Of a stretch of 33,655 nt of DNA, positions 17,445 through 33,655 are shown one piece after another. This DNA comes from Sedimentibacter sp. (GTDB lineage Bacteria; Bacillota; Clostridia; Tissierellales; Sedimentibacteraceae). The stretch is from assembly GCA_017995755.1 (NCBI GenBank), contig JAGOIH010000006.1, forward strand, positions 1 to 33,655. Direction: 5' to 3'. The position numbers and the translations under genes are program-made. How positions within the stretch are numbered: position 1 is the first letter of the stretch; every line of letters starts with the position of its first letter. A model generated the notes under the pieces. That model saw only the letters and a list, made by a program, of their open reading frames with translations, did not search any database and had not been told where the DNA came from.

Positions 17445-17502
17445 GTGGCATAAAATACCAATGTTTATATGGTGTTTAGATGTCGAAATCTGTAAAAAAT
17501 GC

Positions 17503-17531
17503 TTGCATAATACTGTCTTGTTTGCTATAAT
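17503..17531 (+). promoter_or_regulatory. Orphan promoter of a candidate small RNA
   Basis: TTGCAT (17503-17508), 17-base spacer, TATAAT (17526-17531), with an extended -10 TG two bases upstream of the hexamer. It points right, away from the desulfurase gene, into a stretch with no coding frame. Confidence 0.75.
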
Positions 17532-17537
17532 TATTTT

Positions 17538-17631
17538 GGTTATCCCCCCCGATAACCGAATATATTCCCAATACCCCTTTTATGCATATTAATGCTTCAC
17601 AACAATGGCCTCAAGGCCATTTTTGTGTTTA
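17538..17631 (+). ncRNA. Candidate small RNA with C-rich hairpin loop
   Basis: Transcription from the promoter at 17503-17531 is expected to start at about 17538, the first base of a perfect hairpin: GGTTATC, loop CCCCCC, GATAACC (17538-17557). A largely unpaired middle contains a second C-rich tract, CCCAATACCCCTTTT, at about 17567-17581. It ends in a textbook terminator at 17604-17631. Total length is about 85-95 nt. C-rich loops in Firmicute small RNAs usually pair with Shine-Dalgarno sequences, so this would be a post-transcriptional repressor (inference). There is no open reading frame of note. Not assigned to a known Rfam family from memory. Confidence 0.65.
17604..17631 (+). terminator. 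Terminator of the candidate small RNA
   Basis: AATGGCC-TCAA-GGCCATT (17604-17621) followed by TTTTGTGTTT. Compact GC-rich stem with tetraloop and T-rich tail on the plus strand. Confidence 0.85.
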
Positions 17632-17739
17632 TGACCTACCCAATTTCTTCGACTGAAAGGAGAAAGAAATTGATGGTAGGTCAAACGCACAGAATGCCAA
17701 ATTTGTGCGACGCAAGGAGCGAACAAATTTGATGCATTC
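17632..17739 (+). repeat. Two-hairpin structured repeat, copy A
   Basis: Hairpin 1: TGACCTACC-CAATTTCTT, loop 17650-17663 (CGACTGAAAGGAGA), AAGAAATTG, bulge AT, GGTAGGTCA. Linker AACGCACA. Hairpin 2: GAATGC-CAAATTTGT, 16-base loop 17707-17722 (GCGACGCAAGGAGCGA), ACAAATTTG, bulge AT, GCATTC. Both hairpins share the same plan: 6-9 bp outer stem, 2-base bulge on the 3' side, 9-bp inner stem, and a loop with CGAC..AAGGAG. Related copies occur at 24745-24862 and 33561-33655. Confidence 0.75.
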
Positions 17740-17771
17740 CCCTGCGTTGCCTGTTTCATTGATTATGTACC

Positions 17772-24744: not shown

Positions 24745-24862
24745 TGCACAGGGAAATTCACTAATTTATTTGATCCTTACGCTGCATAAATTAGGAATTT
24801 TGTGCGTTTGACCTACCAGCCATTCCTGCTTCGCTATCGCTTACAGCAATAAGGTTAAGTCA
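24745..24862 (-). repeat. Two-hairpin structured repeat, copy B
   Basis: In the minus orientation: TGACTTAACC ... GGTAGGTCA hairpin 1 (24809-24862), linker AACGCACA shared exactly with copy A, then hairpin 2 with AAATTC-CTAATTTAT, 16-base loop 24770-24785 (GCAGCGTAAGGATCAA), ATAAATTAG, bulge T, GAATTT. Compared with copy A the 9-bp inner stem is different in sequence but still fully paired, and loop length is the same. It occupies the leader between clpX and lon. Confidence 0.7.
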
Positions 24863-33543: not shown

Positions 33544-33560
33544 CTCGCAGTCTCGCTGCA

Positions 33561-33655
33561 CAATCTTGTTTGCTCCTTGCGTCGCACAAAATTGGCGCTC
33601 GTTGCGAATGACTTACCGCTATTTTTTCTGCGCTTAGGCTTGAAAAAATAGGGTT
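33561..33655 (-). repeat. Two-hairpin structured repeat, copy C (cut by the window edge)
   Basis: In the minus orientation: hairpin 1 with 9-bp stem CTATTTTTT/AAAAAATAG (33619-33651) and 15-base loop, then GGTAAGTCA (copy A: GGTAGGTCA), CGCA, and hairpin 2: CAATTTTGT, 16-base loop 33570-33585 (GCGACGCAAGGAGCAA), ACAAGATTG, one G-T wobble. Loop 2 is nearly identical to copy A. The outer 5' arm lies outside the window. Confidence 0.7.

Follow-up and report, generated by a model that had tools for sequence, protein, structure and literature searches.

A locus of Sedimentibacter sp. is, on comparison of the sequences, a conserved gene of a small RNA (sRNA) family that spans the class Clostridia and apparently has gone undescribed so far. 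The gene lies in the window, by which we mean the whole stretch of 33,655 nucleotides analyzed, and its presence, its conservation, the Spo0A boxes at its promoter and the complementarity of its C-rich loop to the spo0A ribosome-binding site can all be read in the letters themselves. Given these features, we lean, if only slightly, towards a trans-acting sRNA of about 90 nt with a Spo0A-controlled promoter, the loop of which would block spo0A translation, so that the RNA and Spo0A would repress each other, and which would have further targets besides. The locus is laid out as follows.

17481-17487, plus strand: perfect Spo0A (0A) box TGTCGAA, 16 nt upstream of the -35
17503-17531, plus strand: putative extended sigma-A-type promoter TTGCAT-17-TATAAT, its position conserved in homologues
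17503-17508, plus strand: -35 element TTGCAT, read from the window letters
17514-17520, plus strand: degenerate 0A-like site TGTCTTG in the spacer, 5/7 match
17523-17525, plus strand: TGC extension of the -10 (extended -10 as a whole, 17523-17531)
17526-17531, plus strand: -10 element TATAAT, after a 17-nt spacer
17538-17627, plus strand: predicted sRNA of about 90 nt, its start placed from the -10 and its end from the terminator
17538-17557, plus strand: hairpin 1, 7 bp, GGTTATC (17538-17544) with GATAACC (17551-17557)
17545-17550, plus strand: hairpin 1 loop CCCCCC, predicted seed for G-rich Shine-Dalgarno sequences
17563-17581, plus strand: unpaired core TATTCCCAATACCCCTTTT, which holds the second C tract and is the most conserved stretch of the RNA
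17573-17581, plus strand: second C tract ACCCCTTTT, read from the window letters
17584-17595, plus strand: small hairpin GCAT-ATTA-ATGC, from the fold and weak by itself
17598-17627, plus strand: intrinsic terminator CACAA...TTGTG, extended form
17604-17621, plus strand: terminator core AATGGCC-TCAA-GGCCATT, followed by TTT

The promoter, the 7-bp hairpin from 17538, the six-C loop, the second C tract and the terminator agree base for base with an earlier note on this DNA. The open reading frames (ORFs) of at least 20 amino acids that overlap the sRNA region are short, the flanking frames fall outside the conserved pattern and a conserved reading frame is not apparent. The predicted RNA has a fold energy of -28.9 kcal/mol versus -11.7 +/- 2.6 kcal/mol for shuffled sequences (z = -6.7; 0 of 200 were as good). 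A scan for consensus promoters alone found 10 with 7.6 expected, the sRNA promoter being absent from that list; conservation, unlike the consensus scan, lifts the putative promoter above chance. A -10 element with at least 4 of 6 matches is found in 190 of 191 homologues, a generous count as the best of 10 positions was taken, and a terminator in 183 of 191 versus 2 of 191 shuffled tails. Hairpin 1 is paired in 98.2% of cells across 24 aligned sequences, and the stem, almost invariant, varies too little in that alignment for its covariation to reach significance. With a promoter and a terminator of its own, both conserved, the element has the make-up of a free-standing trans-encoded sRNA. Directly downstream of the terminator, at 17630-17765, is a dispersed repeat, about 118 bp long and containing an inverted repeat; it is also seen at 24749-24827 and 33557-33654, and the draft genome of the window has 45 matches to it. 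GACCTA..GGTAGGTC-like copies adjoin the sRNA in other Sedimentibacter, and the repeat looks like a MITE or REP-type element.

The spread of the family was followed by sequence search and by covariance model. With the 129 bases as query, blastn gave a single copy in the genome of the window and hit 38 of 61 relatives; a query shortened to 117 bases matched 83 of the 219 genomes of the order. The covariance model was built from 24 diverse sequences, a wider alignment (A2) being kept out of it as its C-run variants were misaligned in the stem. At E <= 0.01 it found the RNA in 94 of the 219 order genomes, matches weaker than about E = 0.001 being doubtful, and placed it in most of the Spo0A-bearing genomes of the order. 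Elsewhere in the class, strong matches occurred in families f20 (which includes Emergencia and Anaerovorax), f59, f69 (Romboutsia-like), f80 and f97; that in the Clostridium family (f52) was weaker but consistent, and what joins the Clostridium members to the family is not high identity but a common architecture and a score of 27 bits. About 190 homologues retain the hairpin, the core (CAATACCC), the promoter and the terminator. A scan of named genomes for hairpin plus core gave at least 119 stretches, and among the matches listed are Sedimentibacter saalensis, Tissierella and Soehngenia (both in f5), Anaerosalibacter, Schnuerera, Romboutsia, Alkaliphilus, Natronincola, Emergencia, Anaerovorax and many Clostridium. 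In 398 genomes across the phylum nothing convincing was found outside the class Clostridia. Weak model matches outside the class (L418, L419) and in G030, G036, G055, G200 and G222 were rejected, as they lack the conserved features. The earlier call of a regulatory RNA thus appears supported: the hairpin, loop and terminator, whose absence from close relatives was to count against it, are conserved there by a wide margin.

The earlier note could not place the RNA in a named family, and our searches led to the same result. Rfam 15 covariance models at the gathering threshold gave 0 matches to the window and to seven loci of several families, and at a relaxed threshold (E up to 10) nothing credible in the window. 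Text searches of the literature with the core letters listed unrelated matches, and those with the Clostridium version of the core listed none. A description of the family was not found in the literature on clostridial sRNAs, Tissierella and yabG, a search that most subscription papers lay outside. Some genomes carry two or three copies of the sRNA gene; extra copies are seen at L007 (G001), at L047-L051 and at L109 (G592). One Sedimentibacter genome has its copies in tandem at a distance of about 230 bp, others have them dispersed, and one member of f69 has a tandem pair.

The Tissierellales members follow the pattern TTGCA-N(about 6)-TGTCG-N(about 6)-TG[CT]TATAAT-N(5-7)-GTGGTTATCCCCCTGGTAACCTCAAATAAGATCTCTATTCCCAATACCCCTTTTGAACGG, then the small hairpin and the terminator. 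In the Sedimentibacter variant the C-run is longer and the linker shorter. The Clostridium variant, with the loop UGACCAU, retains the stem, CTCAATACCCTTTT, the terminator and TGTCG, the last about ten bases nearer the hairpin than in Tissierellales. Across the class the core is nearly invariant and more conserved than the loop. The f8 members (L397, L398) have kept the promoter box, the hairpin and the C-loop and have lost the second C tract, with CCCATTTATTAT in place of CCCAATACCCC. The Spo0A boxes, the class-wide spread and the second C tract as the more invariant part of the RNA are additions to the earlier reading.

Gene neighborhoods, for which gene names come from our reading of the sequences and not from a family scan, bear on whether the element could be a cis-acting leader or attenuator of a downstream gene. 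In many Tissierellales (61 loci) an asparaginase gene does follow in the same orientation. However, in the window the gene that follows is encoded on the opposite strand. Of 184 loci, 66 share this arrangement and 118 have the gene on the same strand as the element, and the neighbors change between families: nifS and an aminotransferase gene in Sedimentibacter, genes for a LUD protein and asparaginase in Tissierellaceae, and, in Clostridium, yabG or veg together with the gene for a SPOCS-domain protein. The upstream gene is divergent in 166 of 192 loci, and with more than 10 distinct neighborhoods the element is not tied to one downstream gene, as befits a free-standing sRNA. Since the neighbors differ by family and the downstream gene lies on either strand, the element is likely a stand-alone gene and not the leader of one operon; we rejected the leader reading on these grounds and consider it very improbable. 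In Clostridium loci L169, L221, L247 and others the sRNA lies between the SPOCS (DUF3794) gene and yabG/veg and is thus placed among sporulation genes.

The 0A box has the core TGTCGAA, in which Spo0A makes specific contacts at G2, C4 and G5 (PMC3485338). The genome of the window encodes Spo0A, the box at 17481-17487 is one of 3 perfect boxes on both strands of the 33.7-kb window, and a relative (G002) has a box at the same place; such a box at the promoter suggests that the gene belongs to the Spo0A regulon. Spo0A status was taken from Spo0A_C (PF08769), partial or degenerate matches being scored as Spo0A-negative, and the domain was present in 82 of the 219 genomes of the order, in 21 of 26 genomes chosen from the class and in 40 of 49 named genomes. 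Among the 147 homologues with a Spo0A status, related genomes being taken as independent and the TGTCG motif having been picked after inspection of promoters, TGTCG or CGACA lies no more than 80 bp from the hairpin in 93 of 122 from Spo0A-positive genomes versus 1 of 25 from Spo0A-negative ones, the former figure being conservative as the 122 include a few promoters with a misplaced hairpin start. For TGTCG in the spacer window alone the counts are 59 of 122 versus 0 of 25. The Spo0A-negative genomes belong to several lineages of the order, Soehngenia included, and to f20. G120 fits the rule that the box follows Spo0A, and G283, with TGTCGAA and no Spo0A match, is an exception.

The position of the box bears on the sign of control. 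Most Tissierellales relatives have TGTCG in the spacer where the window has TGTCTTG, and a box between -35 and -10 would imply repression by Spo0A. The Sedimentibacter members, that of the window among them, have a decayed spacer box and retain the upstream box alone. The sign of Spo0A control is therefore less clear in the window than in its relatives, the perfect box lying upstream of -35 and the spacer box being degenerate. Spo0A might instead activate the sRNA gene, at least in Sedimentibacter, and the RNA would then damp Spo0A synthesis in a negative feedback rather than a toggle. The upstream box of the window would suit activation, as would the boxes that several relatives have, in either orientation, just upstream of -35. 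However, the box is inside the core promoter in most Tissierellales and Clostridium, which fits repression, and we regard activation as improbable.

The proposal of pairing between the C-rich loop and ribosome-binding sites, made in general terms from the window alone, now has a specific and conserved candidate target in spo0A. In spo0A leaders taken from 80 genomes, GGGGG precedes the start in 65, versus 28 of 238 and 42 of 569 other starts (about 9%), and it is present in all 39 leaders of lineages with a CCCCCUG-type loop. For orthologues of genes near the sRNA, the controls, the counts are 0 of 38 (nifS), 2 of 35 (SPOCS) and 11 of 62 (asparaginase). In Clostridium with a loop that has no C-run, the spo0A G-run is found in 1 of 8. 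The letters flanking the run follow the loop as well. CA stands directly before it in 25 of the 39 leaders from CCCCCUG-loop lineages versus 4 of 73 other G5 leaders (Fisher p 3e-11, a value that overstates the certainty as related genomes were counted as independent), and in 2 of 12 from Sedimentibacter and near relatives, whose loop ends differently. This leader CA is complementary to the UG of the loop and lengthens the pairing; in G216 (Tissierellaceae) the leader CAGGGGGATAA is the exact complement of UUAUCCCCCUG. The median loop-spo0A duplex ranks within the best 3.6% of 807 starts, and that of the window genome (-16.0 kcal/mol) within the best 3.1%; about 3% of starts pair with the loop as well as spo0A does. 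In f20 the G-run is found in 4 of 9 spo0A leaders although the loop is C-rich. G-runs also occur in spo0A leaders of four genomes without a detected RNA (G200, G222, G052 and G036) and, without a C-loop, in the Clostridium G625. Many spo0A leaders (L285-L304, L335-L394) have TGTCGAA upstream, in line with spo0A autoregulation.

The RNA probably has other targets too, since it is kept in lineages without spo0A. The core showed no preference for the spo0A leader in the duplex comparison of 807 starts, which with this survival argues for further targets, and starts complementary to the core (AAGGGGTATT..ATG) in 61 genomes gave no recurrent gene among the 30 loci examined. In L028, L029, L044 and other Tissierellaceae, the LUD-type gene divergent upstream of the sRNA has a GGGGG Shine-Dalgarno sequence (for example, TAGGGGGATAAATATG) that is complementary to the sRNA loop. 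This gene is possibly a second target.

A Spo0A-controlled sRNA could also act as a general anti-Shine-Dalgarno RNA, largely through the invariant core, with spo0A not the main target and its G-run one instance among many or due to another cause. That the core is more conserved than the loop, that the sRNA persists in lineages without Spo0A, that GGGGG is found in the leader of the adjacent LUD gene in 20 of 47 loci and that it is not rare among starts at large would all suit such an RNA. The 39 G-runs in 39 leaders and their CA flank, however, mark spo0A beyond a generic G-rich start, and we judge a general role rather unlikely, if well short of improbable. The extreme conservation of the unpaired C-rich tracts might also reflect an RNA whose single strands mainly serve to bind a protein, such as one with a KH domain, and not to pair with messages. 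A matching spo0A G-run with its CA flank needs base pairing, however, and the protein-binding role is thus very doubtful.

RsaE/RoxS, a short sRNA of Firmicutes, acts on ribosome-binding sites through unpaired stretches rich in C. It belongs to the Bacillales (PMC4409812). The letters ACCCCTTT are similar in the RNA described here, but RsaE (RF01820, which we take to be its Rfam entry) had no match to the window with E up to 10, and we do not place the RNA in RsaE/RoxS. In Bacillus subtilis, SR1 affects sporulation initiation via inhibition of kinA translation and is a dual-function RNA encoding a peptide (PMC8501984); the predicted target of the present family differs, and no conserved reading frame is apparent in it. 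In Clostridioides difficile the sRNA SpoY (nc020), which favors G-rich sites resembling an RBS, represses the translation of spo0A at its RBS and is most abundant in early and mid exponential growth (PMC10267692). The C-rich seed of the window family is likewise complementary to the spo0A RBS, a likeness of predicted mechanism and not of membership. SpoY is 5'UTR-derived, with a start site common to CDIF630_00827 (PMC10267692), whereas the family member in the Clostridioides-like G471, whose identity as C. difficile is unproven, is divergent from nifS and has no same-strand ORF of at least 20 amino acids before the next gene, the two RNAs being compared by locus only. By analogy, SpoY is a precedent in the class Clostridia for sRNA repression of spo0A translation at the RBS.

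Under the mutual-repression scheme that we favor, we infer transcription, the sign of Spo0A control, the translational block and the behavior of the circuit as follows. The sRNA would be made from a sigma-A-type promoter under Spo0A control and would expose two single-stranded C-rich tracts, the core UUCCCAAUACCCCUUUU and the hairpin loop AUCCCCC(C). Pairing of this loop with Shine-Dalgarno sequences rich in G, notably the one of spo0A, would block ribosome entry, so that in growing cells the sRNA may hold Spo0A synthesis low. As sporulation begins, activated Spo0A, bound in most lineages to the 0A box between -35 and -10, would block RNA polymerase and shut the sRNA gene off. The two arms would form a mutual-repression loop between the sRNA and Spo0A. 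That such a double-negative switch operates class-wide, with repression by Spo0A through a core-promoter box and a loop co-adapted to the spo0A Shine-Dalgarno sequence, is a real possibility that we hold more tentatively.

Early genomic work suggested that Clostridia lack the classical phosphorelay (PMC11210211), and it has long been asked how they take the decision to sporulate without one of the Bacillus type. A conserved and so far unlisted sRNA, with links to Spo0A at its promoter as well as through its predicted target, offers a concrete circuit, testable in any tractable member, as well as a possible reason for an oddity of spo0A, its G-run Shine-Dalgarno sequence. The covariance model can be used to annotate the sRNA in many genomes. 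If the proposed circuit is true, much of the Clostridia would have an unnoticed post-transcriptional toggle at the entry into sporulation.
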